Positions 3,251 to 63,836 of a DNA stretch of 64,000 nt are shown here, piece after piece. Made by a program: the position numbers and the translations under genes. The DNA comes from Serripes groenlandicus (lineage: Eukaryota; Mollusca; Bivalvia; Cardiida; Cardiidae), in the NCBI GenBank assembly GCA_031761405.1, contig JASEVX010000013.1, positions 43,852,704 to 43,916,703 on the forward strand, written 5' to 3'. The stretch's first letter is position 1; every line of letters starts with the position of its first letter. The notes under the pieces are model-generated. The model saw only the letters and a program-made list of their open reading frames with translations, was not told the DNA's origin and did no database searches.

Positions 3251-3628
3251 ACTAATGACTTTTGAAGACATTGTGGCAAAATAACCAATTTTTCTGTTTT
3301 TAACTCAATTAAAAATTGAACTTACATTTATAGAGATTTTCCAAATGTTTCCAAAGACTGTTTCAAAGTCATCTGCTGCAGATTTACTGTAAGTGGGAGA
3401 GGGTTGAAATGGTTGCTGTAACAGAAGACATCTGATGCTGCATAAGCCAACACGTTTTGAAAACAATGTTGGAAAGGGAGAAATTGTTCAAAACTATAAA
3501 AGCGAATATGAATTAACCTTTTCTCATATGCAGTCACATTTTGACACACTTGCAAAAAGAGAAAAAAGGTGACAGACAAATGATCCCTAAGCGTCTCCTC
3601 GTAGGCGGGCGACACAAAAACTACCAAC

Positions 3629-3776
3629 CTGTATTTTTCTAGAGCTTCGAGAAAGTACCGTTTCCTCTCATCTTCCGTGAAACCGCACATCATGTTATAA
3701 AATATGTGGAAATTCTTCTCTCCCGGTGACTGCCTTACAATCCGGCTTTTCTCCAACATATGCTCAGTTATTATTG
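3629..3776 (-). CDS. Myosin motor exon (LEKSR..GEKNFHIFY block)
   Basis: Fourth exon of the myosin. It completes GAIITEHMLEKSRIVRQ and continues GEKNFHIFYNMMCG, the conserved stretch after switch I, ending at EALEKYR. Length is 148 bp, acceptor TTACAG, donor GTTGGT at 3623-3628, which is a weaker but acceptable GT site. Phase 1 in and phase 2 out match the neighbouring exons exactly. Confidence 0.88.
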
Positions 3777-4135
3777 CTGTAAGTGAACAAGTAAAACATC
3801 TGTGAGCTGTGCTGGACTAAACCCTTTTTCACATACAACAAATCTACAGCAGATGACATATCTAGGCAAAAACATGTTTTCAACTTTATTCAAGAATTGT
3901 TCAATTAATTATAAAAAAAAAAATCCATATTTTTAACAAAATGTTTTCAATGTCTTCTGCTGCAGATTAGTTGTATGTGGGAAATGGTAAAATCCTTTTA
4001 CACAGTATTTATGCTACTTCTGTAAAGTAGCAGGTGTAATCTGGTTTGGAAGATGCAATCAATTTAACTTTTTTCCCAGATGCAGACATGTTTTTTCGCC
4101 GTTTAAGCTCGGGTTTTGTAATGTTTCTGTATCCC

Positions 4136-6700: not shown

Positions 6701-8095
6701 CATGGCTGCCAGTTCACATATCCCTGGTTTCCTTGCAATCTCACATCAGTACTTCACTCAGCATTGCTACCAAACAACTGTATGGCAGCCAGTTCACCTA
6801 CCCCTGGTTTCTTTACAATCTCACATCAGTACTTCACACAGCATTGCTACCAGACAACTGTATTGCAGCCAGTTCACCAGTAACCCTGGTTTCCTTACAA
6901 TCTCACATCAGTACTTCACACAGCATTGCTACCAGACAACTGTATGGCTGCCAGTTCACCTACCCCTGGTTTCTTTACAATCTCACATCAGTACTTCACT
7001 CAGCATTGCTACCAAACAACTGTATGGCAGCCAGTTCACCTACCCCTGGTTTCCTTACAATCTCACATCAGTACTTCACTCAGCATTGCTACCAAACAAC
7101 TGTATGGCAGCCAGTTCACCTAACCCTGGTTTCCTTACAATCTCACATCAGTACTTCACACAGCATTGCTACCAAACAACTGTATGGCAGCCAGTTCACC
7201 TAACCCTGGTTTCTTTACAATCTCACATCAGTACTTCACACAGCATTGCTACCAAACAACTGTATGGCTGCCAGTTCACCTACCCCTGGTTTCCTTACAA
7301 TCTCACATCAGTACTTCACTCAGCATTGCTACCAAACAACTGTATGGCAGCCAGTTCACCTACCCCTGGTTTCCTTACAATCTCACATCAGTACTTCACA
7401 CAGCATTGCTACCAAACAACTGTATGGCAGCCAGTTCACCTACCCCTGGTTTCCTTACAATCTCACATCAGTTCTTCACACAGCATTGCTACCAAACAAC
7501 TGTATTGCAGCCAGTTCACCAGTAACCCTGGTTTCCTTACAATCTCACATCAGTACTTCACACAGCATTGCTACCAGACAACTGTATGGCAGCCAGTTCA
7601 CCAGTAACCCTGGTTTCCTTACAATCTCACATCAGTTCTTCATACAGCATTGCTACCAGACAACTGTATGGCTGCCAGTTCACCTACCCCTGGTTTCCTT
7701 ACAATCTCACATCAGTTCTTCATACAGCATTGCTACCAAACAACTGTATGGCAGCCAGTTCACCTACCCCTGGTTTCCTTACAATCTCACATCAGTACTT
7801 CACTCAGCATTGCTACCAAACAACTGTATGGCAGCCAGTTCACCTACCCCTGGTTTCCTTACAATCTCACATCAGTACTTCACTCAGCATTGCTACCAAA
7901 CAACTGTATGGCAGCCAGTTCACCTACCCCTGGTTTCCTTACAATCTCACATCAGTTCTTCATACAGCATTGCTACCAGACAACTGTATTGCAGCCAGTT
8001 CACCTAACCCTGGTTTCCTTGCAATCTCACATCAGTACTTCACTCAGCATTGCTACCAGACAACTGTATGGCAGCCAGTTCACCTACCCCTGGTT
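6701..8095 (+). repeat. 80 bp minisatellite, ~17 units, derived from a SINE body
   Basis: Unit of 80 bp, with a few 81-82 bp variants that read CACCAGTAACC instead of CACCTACC. Units differ at only a few positions. The unit matches the middle of the tRNA-derived SINE seen at 11.6 and 27.0 kb (GCCAGTTCACCTAC, CCTGGTTT, CACATCAGTACTTCACACA, CAACTG-TGGC). Since 80 is not a multiple of 3 and no frame has a stop, long overlapping reading frames appear; I regard them as non-coding. Lies in the intron between the 10.1 and 6.4 kb myosin exons. Confidence 0.9.
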
Positions 8096-8166
8096 TTGTA
8101 TGACATGGCTGACATGTCACTTACCCACTAAATGTAGAGCTCCTGCAGTCCAGTCTGGACATACAT

Positions 8167-9729: not shown

Positions 9730-9959
9730 TTAACCCTGTCCCTCATATAGATGCTTTCTGATGCCTCTGCAGCAGACAGCTTTTTGGAAACATAGTGACA
9801 AAAGAAGAAATTGCACAAAACGTGCAATTTCCCCTTTTGCCACAATGTTTTCCACTTTTTGTCATAGGTTATCCATTCAATTATGGAGATTTTCTATTTT
9901 TTGATAAAATACGTTCAAAGTCGTCTGCTGCAGAATTGTCGTATGAGGGAAAGGGTTAA
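9730..9959 (+). mobile_element. TTAA palindromic element, type 1 (reference copy)
   Basis: Family description. About 230 bp, TTAA at both ends followed by CCCTTTCCCTCATA. One arm continues TAGACGCTTTCTGACGCC, the other CGACAATTCTGC; both then have CTGCAGCAGACG-CTTT and ACAT. The centre is hairpin GAAATTGC...GCAATTTC. No ORF. TTAA ends and a CCC start fit a piggyBac-type MITE moved by a transposase elsewhere. Plus means the TAGACGCTTTC arm is on the left. At the matching site in copy 2 (50,369-50,598) the element is inverted. Confidence 0.9.
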
Positions 9960-10079
9960 GAGAAGTCGATTGTAAGAAAATGTGAAGATGAAGGCAGACA
10001 CTGGACAGTGATTGACGATAATAGCTCATCCAGCAGTTTGTGCTTAGGTGAGCTGAAAAGATGACAACATTCCACCTAC

Positions 10080-10287
10080 CAGATCCTGATTCACCACTAA
10101 CCAGCAAACACTGGTTCCCCTCATTTCTCTGTACATTGTGATACACTCTGGAACCCAGCGCATAGACATGGGGCTTCAACTCTGTCAGCGTCTGGGGCCT
10201 ACCATATGCCCGACCGATTTCATCTCCATATAGATTTGGAATCACTGTATATGGGTTGACAGTGATGAGAATATCTCCAATGTATGT
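10080..10287 (-). CDS. Unconventional myosin motor exon with P-loop start
   Basis: Exon of a myosin heavy chain, an actin-based ATP-driven motor. The translation begins TYIGDILITVNPY and ends LLVSGESGSG, which is the first part of the Walker A loop GESGSGKT; the lysine and threonine come from the next exon at 6.4 kb. The exon is 208 bp, in phase 0 at the start and phase 1 at the end, with acceptor TTTCAG at 10288-10293 and donor GTAGGT at 10074-10079. The IGDILI-VNPY block and the exact P-loop make the family assignment firm. The class is not certain. The short loop and later [10 protein letters not shown] block fit class III-like animal myosins, but molluscs also carry chitin synthases with a myosin head, which cannot be excluded. 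The N-terminal motor exon that should precede this one was not found at higher coordinates. A near-identical second copy lies at 51,037-51,244. Confidence 0.9.
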
Positions 10288-10486
10288 CTGAAATGAAATA
10301 ATCAAATTACTGAAAGTACCGACTGCTTGCCCCTTTTAAATAATTATACTTTCTTTCATTGAGAGTTTCAATGTTTTGCCTACATGTTATTATAGTTCTT
10401 TGCTATAAATTTATTGTATATGGAAAACGGTTAAAGATACAGTAATTTATGGCAACTACTGCACATTTGAAAGTTGAAAGTTTTAC

Positions 10487-20432: not shown

Positions 20433-20670
20433 TGAACCCTTTCTCTCATACGACAATTCTGCAGCAGAAGACTTTGAACATATTTTGTCAAAAAACAGAA
20501 AATTTCTATAATTGAATGGATAACCTATTACTAAAAGTGGATAACATTGTGGCAAAAGGAGAAATTGCTCGTCTTGAGCAATTAATTCTTTTGTCACTAT
20601 GTTTTCTAAAAGCCGTACATGACTCCACTGCAGAGTCGTCAGAAAGCGTCCATATGAGGGAAAGGATTAA
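20433..20670 (-). mobile_element. TTAA element type 1
   Basis: Left end TGAACCC, right end GGATTAA. First of three in a row, all in the same orientation; counterparts 62,909-63,140, 63,152-63,378 and 63,390-63,836. Confidence 0.85.
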
Positions 20671-20681
20671 CAGCCTTATAC

Positions 20682-20914
20682 TTAACCCTTTCCCTCATAC
20701 AACAATTCTGCAGCAGACAACTTTGAACATATTTTGTCGTAAAATGGAAAATCTCTATAATTGAATGGATAACCTAAGACTAAAAGTAGAAAACATTGTG
20801 GCATTAAGGAGAAATTGCTTGTTTTGAGCAATTTCTTCTTTTGTGACTAAATGTTTTCAAAAAGCTGTCTGCTGCAGAGGCATCAGAAAGCGTCTATATC
20901 AGGGAAAGGATTAA
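20682..20914 (-). mobile_element. TTAA element type 1
   Basis: Second of the row; the ~12 bp spacer CAGCCTTATAC is like the next spacer TAGTTTTATAC, suggesting a local tandem duplication of element plus spacer. Confidence 0.85.
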
Positions 20915-20925
20915 TAGTTTTATAC

Positions 20926-21454
20926 TTAACCCTTTCCCTTATACGATAATTCTGCAGCAGACGACTTTGAACATATTTTGTCAAAAAATGGAAAATGTCA
21001 ATAATTGAATGGTTGATTGATTTATTGATTATGGTTTAACGCCGTTTTTAATAATTTCTCAGTTATATCACGGCGGCCAGTTCACCAACTCATGTGTTTC
21101 CTGGTTTTCTCACGCCAGTACTCCACACAAAATTCTTCCCAAGCAACTGGCTGCTTTTCCACATAGACTTAGCCACGAATGACGCATGTCGCAATGACTT
21201 TTGTCAAACGTCGGAAAGAAAGTTGGCCGAGCCGGGATTCGAACTCACAACCCTTGGATTGACAGCCCATGTTGTTACCGACTGAGCTACCGGGATATAA
21301 TTGTATGGATAACCTGTATGACTAAAAGTGGAAAACATGGTGGCAAAATGAGAAATTGCTTGTTTTGAGCAAATTACTTCTTTTGTCACTATGTTTTCAA
21401 AAAGCCGTCAGCTGCAGAGGCGTCAGAAAGCGTCTATATGAGGTAAAGGGTTAA
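20926..21454 (-). mobile_element. TTAA element type 1 split by a SINE
   Basis: Third of the row; arms 20,926-21,012 and 21,297-21,454. Confidence 0.88.
21013..21296 (-). mobile_element. tRNA-derived SINE inside a TTAA element
   Basis: Flanked by a 12 bp target duplication, ATAATTGAATGG at 21,001-21,012 and ATAATTGTATGG at 21,297-21,308. Head shows GGTAGCTCAGTCGGTAACAA and GTTCGAATCCC. Orthologous copy at 63,477-63,699. Confidence 0.9.
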
Positions 21455-36299: not shown

Positions 36300-36529
36300 T
36301 TAACCCTTTCCCTCATATAGACGCTTTCTGACGCCTCTGCAGCAGACGGCTTTTTGAAAACATAGTGACAAAAGAAGAAATTGCACAGAACGTGCAATTA
36401 TTCCTTTTGCCACAATGTTTTCCACTTTTATTCATAGGTCATCCATTTAATTATAGAGATTTTCTATTTTTTGACAAAATATGTTCGAAGCCGTCTGCTG
36501 CAGAAATGTTGTATGAGGGAAAGGGTTAA
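36300..36529 (+). mobile_element. TTAA element type 1
   Basis: Full length, both TTAAs. Confidence 0.88.
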
Positions 36530-36629
36530 ACCTTCAGAACTCCATAGCTGTAACCGGTTGTTACTCACTAGAAGATCTCTAGATAACGGACATAAATCAT
36601 GTTCTTAACCTTTTCCCTCATATACAGGT

Positions 36630-36930
36630 CGAAAATAATAAAAGAATAACAAATTTAAGATACCTGAATCACCTGTTGAATTAGAACCCTTCTTTTTTCA
36701 ATAAGCGTTTCACCGACCGAGATCAATTTTGTCAATTAGGAAGTGGAATATTTAACAAAATCCGGACAAATACGATGAAACACAAACTTCCGATACTGTT
36801 CAACGGTTCTGCGTAACTTTTTGATTATAATCTACTATTTTCAGTTATCAAAAGAAGTTAACTATGCATACTATCACTTAAACATCACATCCATTCGTAA
36901 GCACAAACTGTTTACATAGTTACATAGTCG
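36630..36930. other. Unique stretch left of the foldback
   Basis: Low-copy. A short minus-strand open segment (ISVGETLIEKRRVLIQQVIQ, then GTATCT) is protein-like but has no start codon or acceptor, so I leave it uncalled. Confidence 0.35.
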
Positions 36931-36935
36931 TCGTC

Positions 36936-37741
36936 TATGGCAAGCCAATTGTCCAATAATTACGTGAACCCAGGTTCACGTTCGAAAAACTAGGATTAAC
37001 GATCGATAAACTAGGTTTTTCGAACGTAAAACCAGGTTTATCGAATACTAACTTATATTTTCGAGCGAAAACATAGGATAACGGGCGTAAACCATAGTTT
37101 ACGCTCGTGAACCCATGTTCACGCTCGATAAACTAGGTTTCTCGATTGAACTAAGAATTTTGGTCGTTATCCTAAGTTCACGAGCGTGAACCTATGTTTA
37201 CGGGCGTGAATCTGGGTTCATGAGCGTGAACCATAGTTTACGAACGTGAACCTAGGTTCACGGTCGTAAAGATAGGTTCACGTTCGTAAACTATGGTTCT
37301 CGCTCGTAAACATAGGTTCACGGTCGTAAACCTAGGTTCACGCCCGAAATTCATAGTTGATTTGATAATCCTAGTTTATCGACCGTAAACCATGGTTTAC
37401 GTTTGATAAACTAGGTTTCTCGATTGAACTACGAATTTCGGTCGTTATCCTATGTTTACGTGCGTGAACCGGGGTTCACGAGCGTGAACCTATGTTTACG
37501 AGCGTGAACCATAGTTTACGAACGTGAACTTATGTTTACGACCGTGAACTCGGGTTTACGAGCGTGAACCTACGTTTACGAGCGTGAACTATGGTTTACG
37601 ACGTTATCCTATGTTTTCGCTCGAAAGTATAGGTTAACATGGTTTTACGTTCGAAAAACCTAGTTTATCGATCGTTAATCCTAGTTTTTCGACCGTAAAC
37701 CTAGGTTCACGTAATTATTGGACAATTGGCTTGCCATAGTC
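36936..37741. mobile_element. Foldback element built of palindromic 20-mers
   Basis: About 806 bp. Ends are inverted repeats of at least 36 bp beginning CTATGGCAAGCCAATTGTCC. The interior is ~34 tandem units near 20 bp, consensus GCGTGAACCTAGGTTTACGA, each itself an imperfect palindrome of CGTRAACC/GGTTYACG. In addition the left ~200 bp is the inverse of the right ~200 bp, so the whole forms one long hairpin. Two internal blocks (37,117-37,170 and 37,400-37,460) are direct copies. Flanks share GTCGTC, a possible 4-6 bp target duplication. No ORF. I do not recognise the family. Confidence 0.8.
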
Positions 37742-37948
37742 GTCTGCTAAATTATTAGTGGTTTCCGGTTTTGATGTGTTGTGTAAATAATACAGCGAGA
37801 ACCAATCAAAATTGGATCGGTATGAGTAATAAAACTTTAAACCATTCTGTTTGATTTAGCTGGTGCCCCCTTTATACAATAGTGTCCGTGCATTGCAGAA
37901 CACCAATTTGCCGCGCAACTGTCCTGCAAGAAAAGCACGTGCAACGAA

Positions 37949-42309: not shown

Positions 42310-43295
42310 ACTAACGGAAATTAAAAACTGTGCATGCCTTTAATTTGAATATTTTTTAAAATACCATTCTGATTATCATAAATTTTAGTACACGTTATCA
42401 ATATGCTATGCGAAACCTGTGTACTACTTTTCGCTCAAATTGCACGTGCGGTTCGTGTTTACATGTTTATTGGGTCTCGCACTTTACACAGTTGAAAGTT
42501 TACACTTTTAAAAGCCTTAAACATTTGTTAAAGATTCAATCAATCGGAAAAACATCGATTTTTTTTGTTTTGTTGGATTTTTACGATGCCACGGCTTACC
42601 GAAAATCAGCGTTTGCGTGCCATTGGGATGCTGCAAGCTGGAAGGCAGCAAAACGAGGTCGCTCAACAATTTGGTGTGCATAGGAACACTTTAAGTTCAC
42701 TGTATAGACGTTACCAGCACACTGGCAGTACTCGGGACTACCCTCGACCTGGGGCACCGCGTGTGATGTCACATCTACAAGACAACCATATTCGGCTCAC
42801 TCATCTTCGTAACCGTTTCCAATCTGCAAGTTTGACGGCTAGAACTATTCCTGGACACCAAATAATTAATCTGAGAACTGTTCGGAACCGTTTGCGTGCC
42901 GTTAACATACGCCCGCGACGTCCTGCAATACGTCCAGTTTTGACAAGACGTCACTGTGTTGCACGCCTAGGATGGTGTCGAATTCGCCTAAGGTTTACCC
43001 ATAGACTATGGGGGGAAATACTCTTCACGGACGAGTCACAACCAATATTTGCAACATTAGTTGGGTCTATGAGACGAAGGTTACGTGCAGTCATCAATGC
43101 ATTAGGCGGACATACCAGATATTGAGTTTGTAACTTTGGATTTCACCCCACCAGTCTTTGAAGCGATGCCAAGATTAAATGAGTAACATTTTTTGTGATT
43201 TCTTTTTGTGATTATGTAAAAGATAGATTGATTAAAATATGTACCATGTGATGAAATAAAAAAATTACAAACATTTTCCCGATGCACAGTTTTTG
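42310..43295 (+). mobile_element. Tc1-like transposon, internally deleted
   Basis: Left end CTAACGGAAATTAAAAACTG with a TA before it; the right end carries the inverted match GATGCACAGTTTTT at 43,281-43,295 but its outer ~15 bp are gone where a tandem-array element begins. Between them lies the shortened transposase. Non-autonomous because the catalytic core is lost. Confidence 0.8.
42586..43125 (+). pseudogene. Tc1/mariner transposase with core deletion
   Basis: Starts MPRLTENQRLRAIGMLQAGR, a helix-turn-helix that binds the TIRs, then a second DNA-binding unit with a GRPR-like turn. The first catalytic Asp is present in LWGEILFTDESQ. Immediately afterwards the frame jumps to the family's C-terminus, SMRRRLRAVINALGGHTRY. 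About 150 residues holding the second Asp and the final Glu/Asp are missing, so the 179-residue product cannot catalyse cut-and-paste. The frame itself is open, so the deletion is in phase. It might still bind TIRs as a repressor, which is speculation. Confidence 0.82.
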
Positions 43296-49504: not shown

Positions 49505-50960
49505 CTCAATGCGATAAAAAGTAATAAATTACAACTTCACTAATCAAGACTGAAAAAACTAGAGGACCCTGAAATAGTTTCCAATGTACTTACTTAATAC
49601 AAATAAAGAAAACCAGCTTTCTGGCGGCCATAGCTTTTCAACAGAACTGAACAATTTTCACTATCTTGGTAGAGGGTCAACTAAGAAACATTTGTGCGAA
49701 ATTGTTTTCAAATTTGACCAATAACTTTTTACCAGAAGATTTTCAAATGTTTGTTAGATATAACATGCATAGTGTTTTAAGGACCCCCATGTTTTTCAAC
49801 AGATCAGAATAATTTAAACAATCTTGGAAGAGGGTCCCCCAAGAAAAATTTGTCAAATTATTTTCAAGTTAGGTCAGTACTTTTCGACAAGAATTAAGTT
49901 ATTAAGTTTTGACTATACACATAAAGGGAAAACAAGCTCTGCCCCCTAGCTGCTATGTTTTCAATGGATAGGAATAATTTTGACATTCTTGGTAGTATTT
50001 GTGCTAAATTATTTTCAAGTAAGGGCAAGTACTTTTGGACAGGAAGATATCTAATGTTTTGTCATTTTTCTCTCTTTCTGATGACGCAGCGACCAAAGTA
50101 TTATGAATTAATTGATTGAACAATTTTGAAAGAGGAATGAATGTATATTGTTTTATGGCGCATCGACAGCTAAGGTCATTTAGTGCGCAATTAAATTTAA
50201 TTATTCATGATCCCTAGGTAAACAAACCAGTACTAGGCTAGAAAATGTGCCTTGCCCAAGGGCACTCCACCATGACATGAAAGAGGAACGAACACCTAAG
50301 GAGCATTTCTTCTTAATTATTTTGAAATTAGTTCATTGTTGGACAAAATATTTCAACTTTGTTTAACAGTCAACCCTTTCCCTCATACGACAATTCTGCA
50401 GCAGATGACTGAATGTATTTTGTCAAAACATAGACAATTTCCATAATTGAATGGATAACCTATGACAAAAAGTGGAAAACATTGTGTCAAAAGGAGAAAT
50501 TGCACGTTCAGTGCAATTTCTTCTTTTGTCACTATGTTTTTTAAAAAGCCGTCTGCTGCAGAGGCGTCAGAAAGCGTCTATATGAGGGAAAGGGTTAAGA
50601 GAAGATGATTGTAAGAAAATGTGAATGCTGGTGGAAAAAAAGATGAAGCCAGACACCGAACAGTGAGTGACCATAATAGCTCAACCAGCACATTATGTTT
50701 TGTCGTTCTTGGTAGTATTGTGCTAAATTATTTTTAAATAAGGGCCAGTACTTTTGGACAGGAAGATTTCTAATGTTTTGGCATTTTTCTCTCTTTTTGA
50801 TGACACAGCAACCAAAGTTCTATGAATTCGATTCTTTGAACAATTTTGAAAGAGGAAGACCTAAAGAGCATTTCTTCTAAAAATTGATTCATTGTTTTAG
50901 GAGAAGTTGATGGAAAGAAAATGTGAAGGCTGGTGGGAAAAAAGAAGAAGCCAGACGCTG
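49505..50960 (+). repeat. Copy 2 of the diverged array, with a local duplication
   Basis: Same array as 9.17-9.73 kb. Here the segment after the TTAA element (50,599-50,690, ...AGACACCGAACAGTGAGTGA) is repeated at 50,905-50,985, with more array units between, so copy 2 has a ~300 bp tandem duplication not in copy 1. Confidence 0.7.
50369..50598 (-). mobile_element. TTAA element type 1, inverted relative to copy 1
   Basis: Left end eroded to GTCAACCC. Flanked by the same unique DNA as 9,730-9,959 but in the other orientation. Confidence 0.85.
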
Positions 50961-51036
50961 GACGGTGAGTGACCATAATAGCTCAACCAGCACTTTGTGC
51001 CCAGGTGAGCTGAAAAGATGACAACATTCCACCTAC

Positions 51037-51244
51037 CAGACCCGGATTCACCGCTAACCAGCAAACACTGGTTCCCCTCATTTCTCTGTACATTGTGATA
51101 CGCTCTGGAACCCAGCGCATAGACATGGGGCTTCAACTCTGTCAGCGTCTGGGCCCTTCCATATGCCCGACCGATTTCATCTCCGTATAGATTTGGAATC
51201 ACTGTATATGGGTTGACAGTGATGAGAATATCTCCAATGTATGT
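51037..51244 (-). CDS. Second copy of the myosin P-loop exon
   Basis: Same 208 bp exon as at 10,080-10,287, with the same splice sites and open frame. I count seven base differences (about 3.4%). Five are silent; two change residues (GRPQTL to GRAQTL and GSRVYH to GSRAYH). The excess of silent changes shows that both copies have been under protein-level constraint. The partner exon carrying the P-loop lysine would fall to the left, where the sequence stops at the N gap. It is either the other allele retained in the assembly or a real tandem duplicate. Confidence 0.88.
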
Positions 51245-51446
51245 CTGAAATGAAATAATCAACTTACTGAAAGGACTGACTGTTTGCCCCTTTTAGATAA
51301 TTATACTTTCATTCATTGAGACTTTCAATGTTTTTGCCTACATGTTATCATAGTTGTTTGCTATAAATTTATTGTATATATGGAAAACGGTTAAAAATAC
51401 AGTAATTTATGGCAACTACTGCACATTTGAAAGTTGAAAGTTTTAC

Positions 51447-62908: not shown

Positions 62909-63140
62909 TGAACCCTTTCCCTCATACGACAATTTTGCAGCAGATTTCTTTGAACATATTTTGTCAAAAAACAGAAAATTTCTATAATTGAATGGATAAC
63001 CTATTACTAAAAGTGGAAAACACTGTGCCAAAAGGAGAAATAGCTTGTTTTGAGCAATTTATTATTTATAGTCACTTTGTTTTCAAAACGCCGTCTGCTG
63101 CAGAGGCGTCAGAAAGCATCTATATGAGGGAGAGGATTAA
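62909..63140 (-). mobile_element. TTAA element type 1 (copy 2)
   Basis: Counterpart of 20,433-20,670. Confidence 0.84.
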
Positions 63141-63151
63141 CAGCCTTATAC

Positions 63152-63378
63152 TTAACCCTTTCCCTCATTCTACAATTTTGCAGCAGACGACTTTGAACAT
63201 ATTTTGTCATAAAATGGAAAATCTCTATAATTGAATGGATAACCTATGACTAAAAGTGGAAAACATTGTGGCAAAAGGTGAAATTGCTCATCTTCAGTAA
63301 TTTCTTCTTTTGTCACTATGTTTTCAAAAAGCTGTCTGCTGCAGAGGCATCAGAAAGTGTTATCAGGGAAAGGATTAA
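63152..63378 (-). mobile_element. TTAA element type 1 (copy 2)
   Basis: Counterpart of 20,682-20,914, with a deletion in the right tip (GTGTTATCAGGG). Confidence 0.84.
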
Positions 63379-63389
63379 TAGTTTTATAC

Positions 63390-63836
63390 TTAACCCTTTC
63401 CCTTATATGATAATTCTGCAGCAGACGACTTTGAACATATTTTGCCAAAAAATGGAAAATCTCTATAATTGAATGGTTGATTGATTTATTGATTATGGTT
63501 TAACGCCGTTTTTAACAATTTCTCAGTTATATCACCGTGGCCAGTTCACCTACTCATGTGTTTCCTGGTTTTCTCACACCAGTACTCCACACAACAATGA
63601 CTTTTGTCAAACGTCGGAAAGAAAGTTGGCCGAGCCGGGATTCGAACTCACAATCCCTGGATTGACAGCCCGCGTCGTTACCGACTGAGCTACCGGGATA
63701 TAATTGAATGGTTAACCTATGACTGGAAAACATGGTGGCAAAATGAGAAATTTCTTCTTTTGTAACTATGTTTTCAAAAAGCCGTCTGCTGCAGAGCATC
63801 AGAAAGCGTCTATATGAGGAAAAGGAAAAGGGTTAA
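63390..63836 (-). mobile_element. TTAA element type 1 split by a SINE (copy 2)
   Basis: Counterpart of 20,926-21,454. Confidence 0.86.
63477..63699 (-). mobile_element. tRNA-derived SINE (copy 2 equivalent), shortened
   Basis: Same target site and 12 bp duplication as 21,013-21,296, so the insertion is older than the split of the two blocks. About 60 bp of body missing after CTCCACACAACAAT. Confidence 0.88.

Follow-up and report, generated by a model that had tools for sequence, protein, structure and literature searches.

Introduction

According to the family descriptions in PMC10045372, complete families of the IS3EU superfamily of transposons have TA..TA ends and usually generate 6-bp target-site duplications, and GingerRoot elements likewise combine a 6-bp duplication with ends that are mostly TA..TA. 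The IS3EU families of rust fungi are described as carrying TAYGG..CCRTA ends, a 6-bp duplication and inverted repeats of more than 30 bp (PMC12730594, family descriptions). The superfamily is also on record in a bivalve: in a survey of oyster satellites, two entries are classed as IS3EU-related (PMC8268682).

As generally summarized, Drosophila FB, Galileo and Tetris have tandem repeats inside their long inverted repeats, and why foldback elements have long repetitive ends is a long-standing question. Galileo belongs to the P superfamily, for which target duplications of 7–8 bp are typical. Two of the four tandem repeats in the long inverted ends of Galileo bind the THAP domain of the transposase (PMC3688188). 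Miniature inverted-repeat transposable elements (MITEs) are short and non-coding, with terminal inverted repeats and many copies. Tandem dimers of MITEs occur. Polinton/Maverick elements usually have long terminal repeats, end in AG..CT and carry polymerase and integrase genes. Among the matches listed in a search of the open-licence literature, by titles and abstract openings, none describes a transposon made of 20-bp palindromes. Term searches in the accessible text of a hard-clam genome paper (PMC8905726; foldback, IS3EU, Ginger, palindrom) and of a paper on bivalve transposons (PMC10294476; IS3EU, foldback) gave no occurrence of any of these terms.

Here we describe a foldback element from the bivalve Serripes groenlandicus, found in the 64,000-nucleotide stretch of DNA that was analysed (hereafter, the window). 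The signature of its ends and target sites indicates that it is probably a non-autonomous IS3EU/GingerRoot transposon, with an 803-bp foldback body of 20-bp near-palindromes that are predicted binding sites for the transposase of another element.

Results

Borders and architecture of the element

The complete foldback element occupies positions 36936–37738 of the window (+ strand, 803 bp), as delimited by its ends, its target duplication and the matches of its end at 40 scored places, and is flanked on each side by GTCGTC (36930–36935 and 37739–37744, neither assigned to a strand), recognized from the sequence and from end pairing. Self-alignment reveals perfect 35-bp terminal inverted repeats, TATGGC..GCCATA, which thus exceed 30 bp: the left one spans 36936–36970 (+) and starts with TATGGCAAGCC, and the right one spans 37704–37738 (−) and ends with GGCTTGCCATA. 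With up to three mismatches allowed and a chance expectation of 0.04, TATGGCAAGCCAATTGTCC has two matches in the window, each of them exact (36936–36954, +; 37720–37738, −), and the 64-kb window holds no further occurrence of the element ends at this tolerance. The first-pass annotation of this DNA had recognized a block bounded by inverted ends, and both termini are indeed exact inverted copies; it had set the right border at 37741, but the leading C of the end that it gave is part of the flanking 6-bp duplication, and the element stops at 37738.

The outer 200 bp or so on each side had been considered inverse copies of each other, in agreement with the arms of ~190 bp obtained by gapped self-alignment of the window copy. 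The left arm (36936–37127, +) pairs with the right arm (37553–37738, −), the inner borders of both being approximate, with interruption by one 11-bp gap and small mismatches. Without gaps, the outer segments 36925–37038 and 37636–37749 are 93% complementary, the outermost 11 nt on each side lying outside the element. A long central palindrome (~37345–37440, +, borders approximate), also apparent from self-alignment, has one array on either side: the first (37165–37342, +) consists of 20-bp near-palindromes with CGTRAAC half-sites on alternating strands, and the second (37443–37619, +) of 20-bp near-palindromes. The nested symmetry noticed at first reading is, accordingly, that of unit dyads and outer arms, to which the central palindrome is to be added. 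The element is only imperfectly symmetric, as the segments 37106–37322 (+) and 37384–37600 are direct copies of each other with 77% identity, a feature absent from the first description; the former segment repeats half of the central palindrome.

Long inverted repeats that are themselves tandemly repetitive mark the sequence as a foldback element, self-folding being a prediction: single-stranded DNA of the element is predicted to form one hairpin of −329 kcal/mol, compared with a mean of −99.7 kcal/mol for 20 shuffled sequences. The observed/expected CpG ratio is 2.03 in the element versus 0.65 in the window. No open reading frame of at least 110 codons overlaps the element, and no Rfam match was found within the window.

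An array of 20-bp units with alternating half-sites

A 27-base unit pattern has 32 matches in the window at up to three mismatches, every one of them within the element, and none in 100 shuffles. About 34 palindromic 20-mers had been reported; the array of 20-bp units is real, whereas the count comes down to 25 recognizable 18-mer units, with steps mostly of 20 bp. Half-sites of the form CGT[AGT]A[AT]C number 42 in the 803 bp of the element versus 22 in the remaining 63.2 kb. In 32 of the 41 intervals, adjacent half-sites lie on opposite strands and 11 or 9 bp apart, which yields the 20-bp period; they are oriented both towards and away from one another, rather than facing apart as first described.

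The constant length of the unit had been taken to suggest selection or copying. It finds a counterpart in insertions and deletions of whole units (8 of 15 are 20 or 40 bp long). For selection on how symmetric the individual unit is, the evidence points both ways. In the window copy (n = 25 units), 20 units have a symmetric central dinucleotide versus 10.9 in shuffles, and bases 4 and 8 are symmetric in 7 each versus 10.1 and 11.1, respectively. The same holds for two diverged or longer relatives: in L059 (n = 62), the centre is symmetric in 44 units versus 24.7, base 4 in 14 versus 24.6 and base 8 in 13 versus 24.4, and in L058 (n = 40), the corresponding values are 29 versus 15.9, 5 versus 15.0 and 7 versus 15.6. 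Because the units share descent, neither the excess nor the deficit of symmetry amounts to independent evidence. Recent tandem copying alone could suffice for the conservation of the half-sites. L059 (G000:C1296:453105-454803) is a diverged relative with 103 half-sites, in which the CGTRAAC motif and the 20-bp spacing are as in the window element.

Copies, target duplications and target preference

The 1.76-Gb genome of the same species was searched with a 136-base query that takes in bases 1–125 of the element, and 40 of the 391 candidates, the window among them, were scored. All 40 places, on 14 contigs, match 127–136 of the 136 query bases at 98%–100% identity. End pairs were accepted only with at most one mismatch in the target duplication; on this basis, both ends and a 6-bp duplication are present at 36 of the 40 places (34 perfect, two with one mismatch), and all 36 paired copies have TATGGC..GCCATA termini. 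Independent sites are slightly fewer, since L012 and L013 are one insertion in a duplicated segment and the flanks of L056 and L057 are similar; L017 and L057 are one locus. The remaining four places did not pair cleanly: L028, L049 and, apparently a single locus present on two contigs, L025 and L026. The genome-wide check of the end suggested with the first description came out in its favour, and the defined ends, the many copies and the target duplications uphold the reading as a foldback element.

The target duplications are of the type NACGTN. Since a target logo pools both strands and is symmetric by construction, we relied on unpooled base counts: among the 34 perfect duplications, bases 2–5 are A in 28, C in 32, G in 31 and T in 32. 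CGT occupies bases 3–5 in 27 and ACGT is present in 22 of them, compared with 0.7% and 0.18%, respectively, of window positions. At the L028 insertion, the paralogous segment lacking the element has GACGTC once.

How copies differ

Twenty monomers of 746–843 bp, ten of exactly 803 bp, share pairwise identities of 98.2%–99.9%, and the family is, most likely, young. They differ by the 15 insertions or deletions mentioned above; 8 of these measure exactly 20 or 40 bp, and another 2 measure 21 bp. The other 16 of the 36 paired copies exceed 900 bp: one is of 1124 bp, thirteen are of 1472–1640 bp, and two are of 2391 and 4346 bp. In these 16 long copies, pieces matching at 94% or more all have one orientation, although some stretches match less well than this. 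In the unpaired L028, by comparison, both orientations occur.

Of the 15 copies longer than 1300 bp, 12 have a joint at one of the two end palindromes, GGACAATTGTCC or the outermost array unit, and the other three (L018, L020 and L057) have neither; most dimer joints lie at the palindromes CAATTG and CGTRAACCNRGGTTYACG. All 11 dimers that were split carry one base variant in the first unit that is absent from the second, and in 10 of the 11 the first unit has a 20-bp insertion at the same place of the alignment. This pattern suggests, without proving it, one head-to-tail dimer lineage that has likely moved as a unit and inserted at many sites; the inference is not strict, given that the first-unit variant is also present in 9 of the 20 monomers.

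Copy number likely also changes in place. At one duplicated locus, an 808-bp copy resides in one segment and a 1574-bp copy in the other, with near-identical flanks (99.4% over 311 bp on the left and 99.5% over 649 bp on the right, but only 97.2% over 1.5 kb on the left). On two contigs holding apparently one insertion, the array differs by gaps of 14 and 19 bp. Conversion between arms was considered and discarded: in all 20 monomers, the left and right arms differ at the same two sites, which speaks against copying of one arm from the other. The 4346-bp copy (L057, G000:C1518:58560853-58565198) contains nested ends with a sub-repeat period of 732–757 bp and may be a transposon on its way to becoming a satellite-like array.

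Longer relatives and the search for an autonomous partner

Longer relatives whose arrays enclose or adjoin unique DNA were found at G000:C1296:213823-215424 (L058), and at G000:C535:115575 and C402:23998 (L025 and L026). C402 and C1195 are apparent duplicates of the C535 locus, and the C535 and C1296:213823-215424 loci have ~150–190 bp of unique DNA beyond the array in common. The C535 locus continues into exon-like frames. No integrase was recognizable at these loci, a six-frame scan of C535:118500-128400 giving no Pfam match above the curated cut-off, and no transposase with the ends of the element was encountered among the loci examined. The 22 kb examined at C535 contain no intact right end but only a broken one at 116355, and on these grounds the locus was rejected as the autonomous partner. 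Three C535 frames likewise have no Pfam match above the cut-off, the nearest being an Ssb-like OB fold (22.3 bits versus 24) near 137 kb, and a 164-residue query assembled from the exon-like frames retrieved no homologue at an E-value of 0.01. The unique DNA at the C535 and C1296 loci may represent remains of a longer or autonomous element, or captured pieces of genes.

Another candidate for an autonomous copy, L028, turned out to be a rearranged insertion within a duplicated gene-like region. In this region (L028/L060, G000:C1:71544000-71556554), the element is present in one of two duplicated gene-like segments and absent from the other. A nearby open reading frame (~71551604-71552615) has a motif reminiscent of secreted phospholipase A2.

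Discussion

Relationship to known elements

We file the element in IS3EU/GingerRoot because its termini and 6-bp duplication fit the published signature. The duplication and the TA..TA ends are common to IS3EU and GingerRoot as described in PMC10045372, and the more specific TAYGG..CCRTA ends, together with inverted repeats exceeding 30 bp, are shared with the rust IS3EU families, for which PMC12730594 gives these two features. By contrast, a body made of a palindromic array is not mentioned in the relevant parts of either source (PMC10045372; PMC12730594), and no transposase was found in the element itself. The initial statement that no described family with this build was known is not supported: the ends and the duplication fit IS3EU/GingerRoot, and Foldback and Galileo also have long inverted repeats that are internally repetitive. 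Most likely, a known superfamily is represented here by a new, young variant whose body is an extreme array.

The likeness to FB, Galileo and Tetris lies in the tandem repeats within the long inverted repeats; the difference is that here the repeat unit is a 20-bp near-palindrome and the units fill most of the length. Furthermore, the duplication of the element is 6 bp long, rather than the 7–8 bp of Galileo and the P superfamily. MITEs resemble the element in being non-coding, with terminal inverted repeats and many copies, but the element is larger, grows by units and has its joints at end palindromes. A further match is to the repM plasmid iterons of Acinetobacter, to which 59 query bases (7% of the query) are 85% identical and which consist of tandem units of ~22 bp with AAACTAGGTTTATCGA; in the one record examined, the iterons (L001, 1470–1565) adjoin repM. 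We take this resemblance to be due to chance or convergence. A prokaryotic or viral origin was rejected: the exact 19-bp end has two matches in bacterial contigs, one per contig and with no inverted partner within 8 kb, and none in viral contigs, where the exact 18-bp unit is likewise missing; the element has no match among phages, and the plasmid matches lie, in the one record examined, at repM iterons.

A proposed model of transposition and growth

It had been proposed that the array binds a protein, which is plausible, and the 42 alternating half-sites are likely the docking points of the predicted transposase. A DDE transposase would recognize TATGG..CCATA, dock on the half-sites that are repeated every two helical turns along both arms, pair the two ends through synapsis of the two arrays and insert the element with a 6-bp stagger. 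The binding of repeats by the THAP domain of Galileo makes such docking reasonable, by analogy only. Since a palindrome within inverted ends counts as a direct repeat and as an inverted one at the same time, direct-repeat exchange can raise or lower the number of units as well as of whole elements. Slippage or recombination would join the right end to the left end at a shared palindrome and thereby produce dimers, the predicted junction being where 12 of the 15 long copies have their joint; dimers retaining both outer ends would then likely transpose as one element. More tentatively, the whole length of the element might be a helically phased lattice of half-sites which, growing by 20-bp steps and by concatemers, would likely outcompete an autonomous IS3EU-type parent for the transposase, which we consider less likely than not.

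Other readings of the same observations fare less well. Spread mainly through hairpin-primed replication or template switching of extrachromosomal foldback DNA, instead of cut-and-paste, would accord with the single predicted hairpin, with the frequency of tandem multimers (16 of the 36 paired copies) and with the two orientations in L028, and a model of this kind has been reported for MITEs (PMC8268682, section concerned); nevertheless, it is unlikely, considering that 34 of the 36 paired copies have exact 6-bp duplications with fixed ends, that the pieces in the long paired copies share one orientation and that the same two arm differences persist in every monomer. The element could also be a non-autonomous member of another superfamily with 6-bp duplications, such as a Polinton/Maverick relic, in which case the array would be neutral filler. 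Polintons do make 6-bp duplications, according to the overview in PMC10045372, but the ends here are TA..TA, not AG..CT, and no polymerase or integrase gene is in evidence, be it as a domain in C535:118500-128400 or as an open reading frame of at least 110 codons over the element, which renders this assignment improbable.

Still less probable is a regulatory or chromatin function of the array in the host, maintained by selection and with mobility as a secondary trait: CpG richness, the regular half-sites and the candidate first exon which the first-pass annotation placed ~200 bp away, at 37.95 kb, would suit this role, and near-identical copies on 14 contigs argue against it. A minisatellite or satellite with incidental borders, finally, would account for the 20-bp tandem period and for the growth of L057 to 4346 bp with repeated sub-elements, but satellites have no fixed ends or target duplications. 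Occurrence as one copy only, or as a satellite whose borders are random, had been named in advance as the outcome that would refute the first reading; instead, the end of the element recurs at 40 places at least, 36 of the 40 having identical paired ends and target duplications, so that random borders are ruled out and a satellite origin is extremely improbable. The observations are best explained by the IS3EU/GingerRoot assignment.

The family offers many near-identical natural variants with single 20-bp unit differences, a likely dimer lineage and a sharp target preference. With these variants, and with a monomer and a dimer at one duplicated insertion, the effects of site number on mobility become measurable. 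The growth of copies also suggests a route by which a transposon seeds satellite-like arrays.

Other features of the window

Myosin head exons (Pfam PF00063) were recognized at 3331–3816, 9880–10335 and 50900–51292, all on the minus strand; the last two, separated by 41 kb, resemble each other closely and thereby point to duplication of a myosin gene. A transposase-like frame with helix-turn-helix matches lies at 42532–43122 (+), and an 80-bp tandem repeat of 17.4 copies with 95% matches at 6702–8096. A dispersed repeat occurs at 20435–21012, 36370–36530 and 62911–63476, in two of these places as a tandem with a unit of ~244 bp (beginning AACCCTTTCCCTCATACGAC); by eye, one inverted piece of it lies to the left of the foldback element.
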